NCBI GenBank assembly: GCA_903858815.1
Contig: CAIOKE010000326.1
Span: 1 to 64,000 of the forward strand
Length of the DNA: 64,000 nucleotides
From: an uncultured Planctomycetaceae bacterium
Lineage (GTDB): Bacteria; Planctomycetota; Planctomycetia; Planctomycetales; Planctomycetaceae
Direction of reading: 5' to 3'
The translations under genes were made by a program, and so were the position numbers. Shown one piece after another: positions 14 to 18,087 of the stretch. The notes under the pieces are model-generated. The model was not told the DNA's origin and searched no databases. It saw only the letters and a program-made list of their open reading frames with translations. Position 1 is the first letter of the stretch; each line of letters begins with the position of its first letter.

Positions 14-38
14 CGGGCTGAAGCCCAGGCTACGGGTG
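14..38. repeat. Intergenic repeat with GGGCTgaAGCCC core
   Basis: A short palindromic core, GGGCT-GA-AGCCC, followed by a CxGGxTACGGGTG-like tail. The same core and a similar tail occur twice in tandem at 4175-4226, in the same orientation. It lies outside any credible gene, just before recQ. The function is unknown; it looks like a dispersed intergenic element. Confidence 0.6.
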
Positions 39-12198: not shown

Positions 12199-12429
12199 AT
12201 GAAGATGGCAGATTCGACGGACGTGCAGCGACGCTATCGCGAGTTCCTGGATTTGCTGCCATTGACCTTGTCGCTGGCCGGCTTGCCGCCCAGCGACCAC
12301 GGCCGCTACTTTACGGCTGAACAGATAGAATCACGGTTGTTCACCATTCGGCATGCCTGGAAGGCTGCTCGCCAGGTTGTTCGCGAGTGTGTTGCCGGTG
12401 GTGGTGACGTGCCGGGTCAACAATCGTAG
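12199..12429 (+). CDS. Small conserved-looking protein of unknown function
   Basis: 76 residues starting MKMADSTDVQRRYREF, with a second ATG two codons in (12205). It is predicted mainly helical: charged N-terminus, LDLLPLTLSLAGLPPSD, then YFTAEQIESRLFTIRHAWKAAR. No known motif is recognised. It sits 23 bases after the FHA gene and is likely co-transcribed and perhaps functionally linked. GGGAGAA immediately before the start is a plausible ribosome-binding site. The stop codon TAG lies inside the hairpin repeat at 12425-12454. Confidence 0.7.
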   Translation: MKMADSTDVQRRYREFLDLLPLTLSLAGLPPSDHGRYFTAEQIESRLFTIRHAWKAARQVVRECVAGGGDVPGQQS

Positions 12430-12715: not shown

Positions 12716-12744
12716 TTGACAACGTCAACTCTCTCCACTACTGT
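12716..12744 (+). promoter_or_regulatory. Sigma-70-type promoter, nusA leader
   Basis: Perfect -35 TTGACA (12716-12721), a 17-base spacer, then -10 TACTGT (12739-12744). Transcription would begin near 12751 and run through the leader into nusA. Read from consensus only. Confidence 0.6.
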
Positions 12745-12957
12745 GTTTGATGTGAGCGATCGCTTTGCTGTTGTTCTGGCGGATTTGCTGGGGCGGTCAG
12801 TGTGCTTTTGTTCCGTATGCTGTTGTGATTTTGGGTTGTGATTGTTTTGTTAGTTCCTGTCAGTCATTCAGAAATCCCGTTTCCGGTTGAACGGTTGGCG
12901 TGATGCGTGGGTGTGCTGTCGGGTGATTGGGCGTTGGTCATCGTGCTTAAGGGACCT

Positions 12958-12990
12958 GAAATGGACAAGATCTAGATCTTTCTCCATTTC
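12958..12990 (+). promoter_or_regulatory. Stable hairpin in the nusA leader
   Basis: Outer stem GAAATGGA/TCCATTTC (12958-12965 with 12983-12990) encloses an inner AAGATC-TA-GATCTT stem. No U tract follows, so it is not a terminator by itself. It could be part of a regulatory fold that competes with the downstream terminator. Confidence 0.5.
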
Positions 12991-13087
12991 TTCAGTTGGC
13001 AGTGCATGTTGAGAAGTGATTCTCGGCTGTGTATTGTTCTGCCGGCTGATGAGGTTTTTGGCAGTCTTTTGTGGGCTGCCGGGTGCG

Positions 13088-13118
13088 AAAAGTGGGACTT
13101 TGATCCCGCTTTTTTTTT
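13088..13118 (+). terminator. Intrinsic terminator (possible attenuator) just before nusA
   Basis: The stem AAAAGTGGGA/TCCCGCTTTT (13088-13097 with 13104-13113) has a six-base loop CTTTGA, and nine Ts run from 13110 to 13118. It lies inside the leader, 24 bases upstream of the nusA ATG, and no gene ends nearby on this strand. It is therefore either an attenuator controlling nusA or the end of an unrecognised small RNA. Confidence 0.75.
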
Positions 13119-13142
13119 ACAGGTGCAGTGAACGTCAGCCTC

Positions 13143-14411
13143 ATGAACGGTAACGAAATACTCAGAATTGTTGATGCGATTCACCGCGATAAGGCCATCG
13201 ATTCGGATGTGGTCTTTGAGGGGATTGAGCAGGCAATTCTTTCGGCGGCTCGGAAGCATTTTTCCGAAGAAGAGCAACTTGAGGTGCGGATTGACCGCGA
13301 GTCGGGCGAGCCTTCGCTGATTTGTGACGGTCGAGCGCTTGAGCCTGAGTTGCTGGGTGACCTGCTGGGGCGCATCTCGGCTCAGACAGCCAAGCAGGTG
13401 ATGATTCAGAAGATTCGCGAGGCAGAGCGTGACGCTTTGTACGACGAGTATCTGGATTTGCGGAGTCAGTTAATTTCCGGCCAGGTGACTCGAGTTGACC
13501 GTGGCACGGTGATTGTGAAGCTGGATAAGATTGAAGCGATTCTGCCTCGCAGCGAGCAGATTCGGAAAGAGAATTTCCGCACGGGCGACCGGTTGCGTGC
13601 GATTGTTCTGGATGTGCGTAAAGCGGGATCTCGCGTGCGTGTCATTCTCAGCCGCACTCATCAGGACTTTGTGCGTCGGTTGTTTGAGGTTGAGATTCCT
13701 GAGGTCAATGATCGGGTGATCGAGGTTCGCTCGATTGCTCGTGAGGCTGGCAATCGTTCCAAGGTTGCGGTGTCCTGTTCTGACAGCACGATTGACTGTG
13801 TTGGTGCCTGTGTTGGTGTCCGTGGTGCTCGTATTCGTGGCATTGTGGAAGAGCTGGCGGGCGAGCGGATTGACATTGTCCGTTGGAACGATTCGTTGTC
13901 GGTGCTGGTTCCGAATGCACTGCAGCCGGCTGAAGTTGAGGACGTGATTCTGTGTCCGATGCTTGGAAAAGTGATCGTTCTGGTGCGGGACGACCAGTTA
14001 TCTCTGGCGATTGGCAAGTTTGGTCAGAACGTTCGGTTGGCCTCGAAGCTGGTAGGTTGGGACATCAATGTGATGACTCAGGTGCAGCTGGATGCTCAGC
14101 TGGACAAGTCGATTGAAGCATTCTGCGTGATTCCCGAGGTGACAGCAGAGCTCGCTGAAAGCCTTGTGTCTCAGGGTTTCTTTACATTTGACGATCTGTC
14201 CGTGATTGAGCCGGATCAGTTGATGGAGATCAGTGGGCTGTCTGAAGAGGACTGCAGTCGGATTGTGGACTACGCAGATTCGGAGAGTGCTCGACTGGAA
14301 TCCGAAGAGAAGTTTCAGGCTGAGCAGCGGAAGCTGGCTGGTGAGCGATCGGAATCGCCATCACCGGCTCCGGTGGCAGATCCTGCAGCGGATTCTGCTG
14401 ACGCGGGTTGA
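13143..14411 (+). CDS. nusA: Transcription termination/antitermination factor NusA
   Basis: Cytoplasmic RNA-polymerase-binding factor that modulates pausing, termination and antitermination. 422 residues. The N-terminal domain starts [17 protein letters not shown], the classic NusA opening, which fixes the ATG at 13143 rather than the in-frame GTG at 13128. An S1 domain (about 130-200, [15 protein letters not shown]) is followed by KH1 and KH2 (about 225-345, [19 protein letters not shown] and [19 protein letters not shown]). A single helix-hairpin-helix region (about 350-400) ends in a Ser/Ala/Pro-rich acidic tail. No rimP lies upstream, unlike the common rimP-nusA-infB order. The first gene of a probable nusA-infB-rbfA operon. 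A long leader ending in an intrinsic terminator suggests attenuation control. Confidence 0.96.
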
Positions 14412-14664
14412 TTATTTTCTGTTGTTTGTTCGCTGGTTTCAGGAGTGGAATCTTCAAAAGTTCATCCCATGTTGTGCTGGCCTGACCGAGACTGTCTCGA
14501 GCGGGCAGAAGTTAACGAGTGGAAGATTGAGGTCGGTCATTCCGATCGGTGAGCGTACTGACCTGTTTTGGGGTCGGACGGCGGCTGAATTCTAAAGGTT
14601 GATAGTGGGTGCAGCGGTTGTAGTTGCACCGATCTTTGTGCTGCCGCGGTTTTGCATGGGAGCT

Positions 14665-14681
14665 GGCCGCGGTTGGCGGCC
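14665..14681 (+). promoter_or_regulatory. GC-rich hairpin abutting the infB ribosome-binding site
   Basis: GGCCGC-GGTTG-GCGGCC is a perfect six-pair stem with a five-base loop. It ends one base before the TAAGGGG Shine-Dalgarno sequence of infB, whose start is TTG at 14697. A second hairpin, GGTGCA/TGCACC, lies at 14608-14630 in the same 285-base spacer. A translational control element is possible but unproven. Confidence 0.4.
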
Positions 14682-14696
14682 TAAGGGGTTTGTGTT

Positions 14697-17621
14697 TTGA
14701 AGATTCGTATCTTTGCCCTGGCCAGAGATCTGGGGCTCGACAGTAAAGTCCTGATTGATCTTTGCGAAGAAGCTGGCGTCAAGCTGCGCAATGCTCTGGC
14801 GACTATCAGTGAAGAAGAGCGAGACATTGTCGTCGCCTATCTTCGTCGCAAGGGGACTCCTGGGGCTGCCGAGCTGCCCACAACTGAGCTGGCGCCAGTC
14901 CGTGAGCAACAGAGCTCAACGGGCCGCGTGCGAGTAATTGGAGCAACGGGGCGTGGCACAGGTCGTTCGGGTGACGGTCAGTCTGGTGACGCCGGAGGCA
15001 TCACCGATGATGACGTGGCGGAATCCCTCGCGGCTGAGACGACAGACGATGTTGGCGAGTTGGCGGTAGAGCCAGCGGAGCCTGTGTCTGAAGTGGTTGA
15101 GGCTGTGGTTCCGGTGGCAGAGCCGGAGCTGGCAGCGGGATCTGAGCAGGTTGAGGTGGCATCTCCCGCGGTGACTATTACGGATGTTTCTGTGGACGGT
15201 GGTGTGTCTGCGGTGACTGAGCCGCAGAGCGTTGCCGAAGCCGTGGTGACTCCTGTCGCTCCCGTAGCACCAGTAGCACCTGTAGCTGCTGTTTCACCGG
15301 TGGCTCCTGCAGCACCCACCTCAGTTGCACCGGTGGCTCCTGCTGCAGTGGCTGGCAGTACTGCGGCGGTATCTGGCAATCCCGGGCAGGCTAATGATGC
15401 ATCTCGGCGTCCCCGCATGCAGCAGCTGAGGGAGATGCGTCCGATTGGTTCTGTGAAGGACCGTGAGGCTGCAGCGGCTCCTCAGGCCCCTCGACCGGCA
15501 GGTCCGATCAAGGTGAACCGTGACAAGCCCGTTGCGCGGCCAATGGTGGCTGCTCCGCCTGACTACACGCCACCGGTGATCAAGAAGCCGAAGCCGAAGG
15601 AAGAGAAGGTTCAGAAGCCTGACATGGCGTTGTCTGACCTTGTGGACCGTCGTAGTCCTCTGGCAGACCAGTTAAAGGCCCTCCGTGAGGCTCGTGAGGA
15701 GCATGAGGCACCAAAGGCCGCTCCGGCGCGCCCCGCCCGTCCCGGCATGGCTCGTGGTTCACTGCTGAAGGAGCTCCGTGAGACTCGCGAGGCTGAGCGG
15801 CAGGCGAAGAAGCTGAAGCGGAAAAAGCGTACGGGTGCTGCTGAGCTGAAGACGACAGCTCAGATGACCTTCCCGGTCACGGTTCGTGCGTTGTCTGAGG
15901 CGATTGGTCGTCCGGCCCGAGCGATTCTTGGTCTGCTGTTGAAGCAGGGTCGCATGGTCACGATCAACGATGCTCTGGGTGAAGAAGAGGCGATGGAAGT
16001 CGCTCTGGAGCTGGGGGTTGACCTCTCCTTCAAGAGGACTCGTGATATCGAGGCTGAGCTGCTGGCGTCACTGGATCACGAGGATCCGTCTGAGCAGATG
16101 TTTGGTCGTCCGGCGATCATCACGATTCTGGGCCACGTCGACCATGGCAAGACGACGATGGTTGACAAGATCCGCAATGCGAATGTTGCTGCTGGTGAAT
16201 TCGGCGGGATTACTCAGCATATCGCGGCCTATCAGGTTCAGCACGAGGGTCACTGGCTGACCTTCGTGGATACTCCGGGTCACGCGGCATTCGGCGAAAT
16301 GCGTTCCCGCGGTGCCAACGTGACGGACATTGTGGTGCTGGTAGTTGCTGCCGACGACGGTGTGATGCCGCAGACGGTGGAGTGTATCAGCCACGCGAAG
16401 AATGCTGGTGTTCCGATTGTGGTGGCATTGAACAAGATCGATCTGCCGGGTGTTGACGAGCAGAAGATTCTGTCGCAGCTGGCGCAGCATGGGATTCTGG
16501 CGGCGGAGTGGGGTGGCGAGTACGAAGTTGTGCGAACATCGGGTGCGACTGGTGTTGGCATCGACAAGCTGCTTGAGACTTTAATCCTGACGGCTGAGCT
16601 GCATGAGCTGAAGGCGAATCCGCAGCGTGAGGCGCTGGGTGTTTGTCTGGAATCCTTCCGTGACGAGGGTCGTGGAGCGATTGCGTGGTTGATCGTGCAG
16701 AAGGGGACACTGAAGGTCGGCGACGTGGTGTTGTGTGGATCGACCTATGGTCGTATTCGCGCCATGTACAATGATCGTGATGAGGCGATTGTTGAGGCTG
16801 GTCCTTCGGTGCCGGTCAAGGTTTCGGGTCTGACTGACGTTCCGGGTGCAGGCGATCATTTCTTCGTCATGAAGGACATCGAGGAAGCTCGCGAAACCGC
16901 GGATGCTCGTTCGCACGAGGGTCGTCGTGAGTCTCTGGCACAGCGGGTAACTCCACGGACACTTGAGGACATCCTGAATCAGCCTCGTGATGGCGAGGGT
17001 GTGCAGGATCTTCCGTTGATTCTGAAGGCGGATTCGCCGGGATCGATTGAAGCCTTGCGAAGTGAGATTAGCAAGTTCGAGCATCCGGAAGTTCGGGTGC
17101 AGGTAATTCACTATGGCATTGGCGGGGTGAACGAAAGCGACGTTTATCTGGCCAGTGCAGCCGGTGCGATTGTGATCGCCTTCCATGTGGTCGCCGAAGA
17201 CAGGGCTCAGCTGCTGGCGGACCGTGAGGGAGTTGAGATCCGTCGTTACAACATCATCTACGAAGTGACAGACCACATCCGTTTGGCACTGCAGGGACTG
17301 TTGCGACCTGAGCGAGTGGAGGTATCGACGGGTCGTGCGATTGTGCTGCGAACCTTCAATATCAGCCGCTTTGGTACGATTGCCGGCTGTCGCGTGCTGA
17401 ACGGAACAATTTCAAGAGACAGTCGAGTGCACCTGATCCGCGACCAGAAGGTGCTCAACGACTACCGAATTGGTTCTCTGAAGCGCGAAAAGGATGATGC
17501 CAAAGAGGTCCGTGACGGGATGGAATGTGGTATTCGTCTGGACGGATTCAACGATGTGAAAGAGGGCGACCTGCTTGAAGCCTATCGTGTGGACGAAATC
17601 AAGCGGACGCTGGATTCCTGA
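14697..17621 (+). CDS. infB: Translation initiation factor IF-2
   Basis: GTPase that delivers initiator tRNA to the 30S subunit and promotes subunit joining. 974 residues, long for the family because of a large Ala/Pro/Val-rich linker. The N-terminal IF2_N domain begins [19 protein letters not shown]. The linker (about 60-300) contains tandem PVAP units. A second IF2_N-like domain lies near 385-445. G-domain motifs are GHVDHGKT near 478, DTPGHAAF near 524 and NKID near 578, followed by the beta-barrel, C1 and C2 domains. The start is TTG, supported by an AAGGGG ribosome-binding site 8 bases upstream and by the conserved opening sequence. It follows nusA by 285 bases and precedes rbfA by 34, matching the usual gene order. 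Confidence 0.96.
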
Positions 17622-17655: not shown

Positions 17656-18087
17656 ATGTCAGCTCGCAGAACAGCCCGAGTGGCCTCGATGGTACGTGAA
17701 GTGGTCAGTTCGGCCATTCTCTCGGAATTGCGGGATCCGCGGATTCGAAACGTCACGGTTCTTGGAGCGGAGGTCAGTCCTGATCTTCGTCTCGCCCGGG
17801 TACGGATTTCGGTCATGGGAGACGAGAAGGCTGCTGCATTGACCATGCATGGCCTGAATTCGGCGAAGGGTTATCTGCAGGCTCGCGTGGGGGCCTACAT
17901 TCGCAGCAGGTATACTCCTGAACTGCGGTTTATACTGGACGATGGCGTCAGGAAGTCTGTCGAGGCTGCTGCGATCATTCGCGAGGCGCTGGAGCAGGAT
18001 GCTGCGCTGCATGGGGCGGTTGCCGTTGATGATGAGTCGCAGCCCGAGGATTCGGAAGTGGGTCTGACGGATTCTGCGGGTGGTTGA
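17656..18087 (+). CDS. rbfA: Ribosome-binding factor A
   Basis: Cytoplasmic 30S maturation factor with a type II KH fold that helps process the 5' end of 16S rRNA. 143 residues. The family pattern is visible: RVASMVREVVSSAILSELRD at the start, then VTVLGAEVSPDLRLARVRIS, and SRYTPELRFILDDGVRKSVE toward the end, the expected RxPxLxFxxD segment. A short acidic tail (DDESQPEDSE) follows. GAAGGA upstream of the ATG is a fair ribosome-binding site. It is the third gene of the nusA-infB-rbfA run; the next gene is not truB but an HhH-GPD-like gene 53 bases downstream. Confidence 0.93.
   Translation: MSARRTARVASMVREVVSSAILSELRDPRIRNVTVLGAEVSPDLRLARVRISVMGDEKAAALTMHGLNSAKGYLQARVGAYIRSRYTPELRFILDDGVRKSVEAAAIIREALEQDAALHGAVAVDDESQPEDSEVGLTDSAGG

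Follow-up and report, generated by a model that had tools for sequence, protein, structure and literature searches.

Why should a strong intrinsic terminator stand directly upstream of nusA, where no gene ends? The question arises in a 64,000-nt stretch of contig CAIOKE010000326.1 (the window) from an uncultured Planctomycetaceae bacterium, in which nusA, infB and rbfA form an operon behind a long, structured leader. Comparison with relatives shows that a promoter, a minute open reading frame (the mini-ORF), the terminator and a probably obligatory readthrough belong together as one unit. We read this unit, at roughly even odds (a probability of about 0.5), as a transcription attenuator that serves the nusA–infB–rbfA operon from its leader, tuned by NusA and carrying a mini-ORF responsive to translation initiation; the action of NusA and the effect of the ribosome on termination are what we infer. 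Relatives were gathered by NusA-based searches, which added 17 genomes from the genus and many from the family. The genus alignment thus holds 18 genomes and the family set 170 genomes from 58 genera, within which NusA identity to the window protein drops to ~63% and leaders are largely unalignable outside conserved islands. All of the evidence is comparative, and the genomes are kin, their counts not being independent events.

The terminator ends 24 nt before the nusA ATG (13143), with nine T at 13110–13118, and its stretch folds with −23 kcal/mol (z −3.9). An initial annotation of the locus had described this position and the nine-T run, and had named loss of the terminator in close relatives as grounds for giving up a regulatory role. 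Relatives keep it: AAGTGGGac...CCCrCTTTTTT is present in 18/18 genus genomes, ~24–36 nt 5′ of nusA. The possibility that it is a generic genome-wide sequence was rejected, the pattern AAGYGGGAN{3,7}CCCRCTTTTTT having its sole match in the 6.39-Mb genome at the leader terminator. In 86 of the 170 family genomes (30/58 genera; in G022 the palindrome was counted on both strands) this strict pattern marks a single locus, and a reversed control across the 170 genomes gave zero matches. Wherever nusA coordinates are listed, the match lies 5′ of nusA on the same strand, 24–404 nt off (84/84 genomes). Relaxed patterns yielded 133 leaders from 47 genera, and most of the 20 remaining leaders have other variants, such as GTGGG...CCCAC. 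With minor exceptions only, the 5′ arm reads AGUGGG or AGCGGG and its partner CCCG or CCCA; the GGG is present in 47/47 genera. The signature also precedes nusA in a subset of genomes from other families of planctomycetes and at two planctomycete loci farther off.

Upstream of the terminator, the TTGACA-17-TACTGT promoter is where the initial annotation had placed it, and the form TTGACA-17-TA(A/C/T)NNT is present in nearly all rows of the genus alignment. Across the family, TTGAC-17..19-TANNNT precedes the mini-ORF and terminator in 41/47 genera, against 0.3 ± 0.6 in shuffles. Transcription is predicted to start at ~12751, and the whole leader folds far better than dinucleotide shuffles (z −7.3). 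A simple consensus scanner listed neither the leader promoter nor the leader terminator, so the case for both rests on comparison. Between the terminator and nusA a consensus scan found no promoter, even a loose sigma-70-type one, in any of the 34 leaders whose gap is at least 60 nt; therefore nusA is most likely transcribed by readthrough of the terminator. As far as sequence allows, no start downstream of 13118 is predicted, a start that would have told against premature termination in the leader. That proposal, made in the initial annotation, is thus strongly supported by the promoter, by the terminator's place at nusA and by the empty gap, its regulatory use being putative.

The leader's other conserved island (~0.85 identity over 12943–12982 in the genus) coincides with the mini-ORF. 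A stable hairpin reported earlier at 12958–12990 is exactly there; it encloses the mini-ORF, which had been overlooked, and the Shine–Dalgarno (SD) sequence lies just 5′ of it. Within the genus the stop is TAG in 18/18 genomes and the start ATG (GTG in L005), with codons 2–4 varying. In other genera the sequence differs and the layout stays: an SD, then ATG, up to three further codons and a stop. Counts were made 85–145 nt 5′ of the terminator, with one genome for each of the 47 genera, and set against dinucleotide shuffles. An ORF of 1–4 codons occurs in 44/47 genera (5.2 ± 2.1 expected), a pure start–stop (ATG-TAG/TGA/TAA) in 31/47 (1.5 ± 1.2) and a mini-ORF with an SD in 36/47 (0.7 ± 0.8); neighbouring intervals are at background. 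The SD with a start–stop also appears in 16 of 20 held-out leaders, left out since the terminator pattern had failed on them. From stop to terminator the median distance is 108 nt (interquartile range 97–116), whereas the terminator–nusA distance varies as given above; it is thus the terminator, and not nusA, to which the mini-ORF keeps its distance.

Aligning 46 genera on the mini-ORF ATG reveals a purine-rich peak at −12..−9, with an SD word in 45/46, partly by selection: the choice of ORF for this alignment and for the pairing analysis favoured SD-bearing candidates, a bias of which the 44/47 count, made without an SD requirement, is independent. The AUG-stop codons are paired less than in shuffles (0.47 vs 0.62). 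TAG, TGA and TAA are all in use, and 98 ATG-stops stand against a single copy of the look-alike ATGTGG; together with in-frame stops after 1–3 other codons, this disfavours a non-coding AUGURR RNA motif. ATG is the sole codon before the stop in 30/46 representative leaders. Across the species of g70 start and stop persist around an intervening codon that is ATG, ATA, AAT or AGA, or is missing, and in g43 the ORFs are two to four codons long with differing residues. A conserved leader peptide was rejected, the peptides being as different as M, MDKI, MLNM, MHSM, MATP and MSPE. By this comparison it is the shortness of the mini-ORF that is conserved and not the peptide encoded; a nucleotide profile built from the g1 element fails to extend to other genera. 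A literature search, limited mostly to open-access papers, found no earlier description, and the mini-ORF appears to be a new element inside the leader. Genus g67 (L230, L235, L236, L237) is the sole one in which neither mini-ORF nor consensus promoter was found; its leaders have a hairpin, TAGGGCATTCCCTGC-TTTTTT, 270–350 nt before nusA.

The hairpin around the mini-ORF keeps all of its pairs in 22 sequences of two genera. Covariation had been suggested as a check, and the pairing held, the only changes being A-U to G-U or the reverse. For the hairpin that precedes the terminator, the arms of relatives, aligned by eye, differ yet stay complementary (GACAG/CTGTC, GGCAG/CTGCC); RNAalifold did not recover it on the same alignment. 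Across family leaders the spacer between mini-ORF and terminator has a more stable fold than its shuffles (mean z −2.2). A hairpin right after the stop codon was considered as a general feature and is unsupported, pairing being equal to shuffles at +0..+11 and structure rising from +18. Pairing between UCCAUUUC of the mini-ORF hairpin and GAAAAGUGGGA had looked plausible at first and gained no support. Coordinates are collected in the table.

Features of the nusA leader and operon in the window, with the basis of each assignment
Feature	Coordinates	Strand	Basis
Promoter TTGACA (12716–12721), 17-nt spacer, TACTGT (12739–12744)	12716..12744	+	Sequence, conserved in genus
Leader RNA, ~368 nt to the end of the U-run	12751..13118	+	Inferred from promoter and terminator
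SD AAGGGA, 6 nt before the mini-ORF ATG	12949..12954	+	Sequence; AAGGRA/GAGGRA in genus
Hairpin GAAATGGA/TCCATTTC around the mini-ORF	12958..12990	+	Alignment of two genera
Mini-ORF ATG GAC AAG ATC TAG (M-D-K-I-stop)	12961..12975	+	Genus alignment, family interval counts
Pre-terminator hairpin GGCAGTC...GGCTGCC	13060..13080	+	Predicted fold
Intrinsic terminator GAAAAGTGGGA-CTTTGA-TCCCGC-T9, rimP-leader type	13087..13118	+	Fold, pattern, comparison
nusA	13143..14411	+	Pfam NusA_N, S1, KH_5
infB (IF2), TTG start	14697..17621	+	Pfam IF-2, GTP_EFTU
rbfA	17656..18087	+	Pfam RBFA

What kind of terminator is this? Naville and Gautheret described in 2010 a rimP-leader terminator with a GGG...CCC stem before rimP-nusA-infB (PMC2965389). 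It was the most ubiquitous attenuator of their survey, operon-specific and without an antiterminator, and recognition by a protein was proposed, with RimP and NusA both put forward, unproven (PMC2965389). The window has the same stem followed by a U-stretch (GTGGGA-CTTTGA-TCCCGC-T9). It stands in an operon leader at 24 nt from the first gene (4–130 nt in the 2010 description; 24–404 nt in our family) and has the same specificity: a single locus in each of 86 genomes, at nusA in all 84 that could be assessed, and empty reversed controls. Its arms likewise show no sign of an antiterminator (mean z +0.23 and +0.21 against shuffles). The same signature (e.g. GTGGGCCACTGGCCCACTTTTTT) lies just before RimP-like ORFs at 18 loci outside Planctomycetota, whose putative RimP identity is read from a LEVSSPG-type motif; the frame printed for L122 is not the RimP frame. 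We take the terminator, on this likeness, to be a planctomycete form of the rimP-leader, joined directly to nusA. Searched at E ≤ 10, the Rfam model RF01770 (rimP, 102 positions) had no hit in the genome, and the leader is accordingly not filed under it; just 1/14 control genomes passed the model's cut-off. At the gathering threshold no Rfam family matched the window leader or 20 relatives' leaders, except an upstream tRNA in L212, and relaxed thresholds gave no convincing match for the leader.

A RimP_N match is absent from the window's 99%-complete genome (G000) and present in 10/14 control genomes. Since the signature survives without detectable rimP, RimP is unlikely as the required regulator and NusA is the better candidate. 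The lack of an antiterminator and the sequence-invariant stem fit recognition by a protein, as the 2010 study proposed. Both agents named in the initial annotation thereby gained support: NusA from the signature match (PMC2965389) and from Bacillus subtilis, where experiments have shown that NusA promotes termination in its own leader and so autoregulates (PMC12288461); ribosome traffic from the mini-ORF.

In the attenuator that we propose, RNA polymerase would start near 12751 and meet the terminator at 13087–13118, and only readthrough would yield nusA. NusA, acting sequence- or hairpin-specifically on the invariant AGUGGG...CCC stem, would most likely raise termination and thus limit its own synthesis. 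A ribosome would load on the mini-ORF ~110 nt upstream, initiate, hit the stop after 1–4 codons and be parked on the leader, to an extent that depends on initiation factors, on fMet-tRNA and on the supply of free 30S subunits. Its occupancy would alter the fold or coupling state of the downstream RNA, and with it readthrough, so that the output of IF2, NusA and RbfA would be tied to initiation capacity. Because the mini-ORF has no peptide information, it could report only whether a ribosome initiated. The more specific proposal, that the start–stop ORF is a direct sensor of initiation whose occupancy controls termination before nusA–infB–rbfA and closes a loop through IF2 and NusA, is one that we consider possible and somewhat less likely than not.

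Much of this could also be arranged differently. NusA autoregulation alone, acting at a rimP-leader terminator, with the mini-ORF as a separate stability device whose ribosome, stalled at a strong SD by the immediate stop, shields the leader or the mRNA from RNase and leaves termination unaffected, is in our judgement possible, if on the unlikely side. It would accommodate the wide spread of the terminator signature without the mini-ORF, and the absent antiterminator agrees with the protein-recognised terminator deduced by Naville and Gautheret (PMC2965389); a two-codon minigene in axe-txe is reported to raise expression, perhaps via mRNA stability (PMC8708949). The tight stop–terminator spacing, set beside a terminator–nusA distance that is anything but tight, argues against a device independent of the terminator. 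Several points count against the attenuator as we propose it. Neither terminator arm pairs upstream above chance, and folding without the terminator 3′ arm found no common partner; the action of a ribosome ~110 nt upstream is left unexplained because no antiterminator was found. RNA stability, rather than termination, could be what the mini-ORF affects. A consistent mini-ORF is absent at the same terminator in other phyla, and it is therefore dispensable for what the terminator basically does.

Classical translation attenuation, in which a ribosome on the mini-ORF would switch between an exclusive terminator and antiterminator, would explain a trp/his layout of leader ORF, later hairpins and terminator; with no conserved antiterminator pairing to either arm, no regulatory sense codons and ATG alone in most of the ORFs, we consider it improbable. 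Slightly more doubtful still is a separate trans-acting small RNA gene beside nusA, the terminator merely marking its end. The compact promoter–terminator unit of ~200–380 nt and its structured spacer would suit such a gene; the gap to the nusA ATG is merely ~24–36 nt in g1 and several other genera, no promoter was found within it, and nusA synteny is unbroken in 84 genomes. Least credible of all is a plain end-of-gene terminator for the operon upstream, which consists of the FHA gene and the small ORF with its end at 12429. Outside the family, in L246, L249–L252 and L254, the AAGTGGG terminator does seem close behind an upstream frame, by some tens of bases and still before nusA; the frame ends there were judged by eye, and a start–stop was not seen. 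In the window, the closest ORF of at least 60 amino acids (aa) 5′ of nusA on the + strand ends, by ORF scan, at 12429, 658 nt before the terminator and with the conserved promoter in between; none ends between 12429 and 13143, as the initial annotation had held.

That upstream ORF (12202–12429, ~75 aa), flanked by the FHA gene and the nusA leader, is without a Pfam match and has ~50% nucleotide identity in the genus. In the nusA–infB gap, a terminator-like hairpin with a poor T-run, GGTGCAGCGGTTGTAGTTGCACC (14608–14630), is modestly conserved in the genus. infB itself has a TAAGGGG SD and then a TTG start (14680–14702), the TTG being kept in 17/17 genus genomes. infC has an AUU start; the strictly kept rare TTG on infB recalls it and may, by analogy, indicate translational autoregulation.

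Few known attenuators are as widespread as the rimP/nusA leader terminator, and the factor acting on it had been an open question. The mini-ORF adds to NusA a second, apparently undescribed input, and it looks as though mini-ORF and terminator together let ribosomes and NusA set the amounts of NusA and IF2. A start–stop ORF across dozens of genera, with all three stops used, would be one of the rare examples in nature of translation that makes no peptide, and the leader would be a simple system for studying the feedback of initiation alone on transcription.

Known systems share parts of this design. The trp and his attenuators have a translated leader ORF rich in regulatory codons and an exclusive terminator and antiterminator; the planctomycete leader resembles them in its ORF before a terminator and differs in that neither regulatory codons nor antiterminator pairing were found. 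Two-codon minigenes of the lambda bar type affect translation of a nearby gene or act via peptidyl-tRNA drop-off. These minigenes (and axe-txe mg2, PMC8708949) have the same build of SD, ATG, zero or one codon and stop, and some of our leaders carry ATG-ATA-TAG or ATG-AGA-TAG (L224, L226, L242, L234, L238 and L239 in g70; L023 in g13); the element here is, unlike them, spaced to a terminator. The Streptococcus fthC uORF motif combines hairpins, an SD, a short uORF start and a terminator-like hairpin, with the speed of initiation (fMet-tRNA) proposed as its signal; it belongs to another gene and phylum, and its ORF is not described as a start–stop (PMC11109978). In B. subtilis, too, an intrinsic terminator in the leader stands before the nusA operon; NusA dependence is experimental there and inferred here, and a start–stop ORF is not mentioned in the description of that leader (PMC12288461). 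Closest is the rimP-leader, also a leader-specific terminator before nusA-infB with a GGG...CCC stem, a U-run and no antiterminator seen. Here no rimP was found, nusA is the first gene and the distance to it reaches 404 nt; and the 2010 study detected no conserved element of greater extent (PMC2965389), whereas in these planctomycetes the mini-ORF and the conserved promoter make the terminator part of a larger unit.
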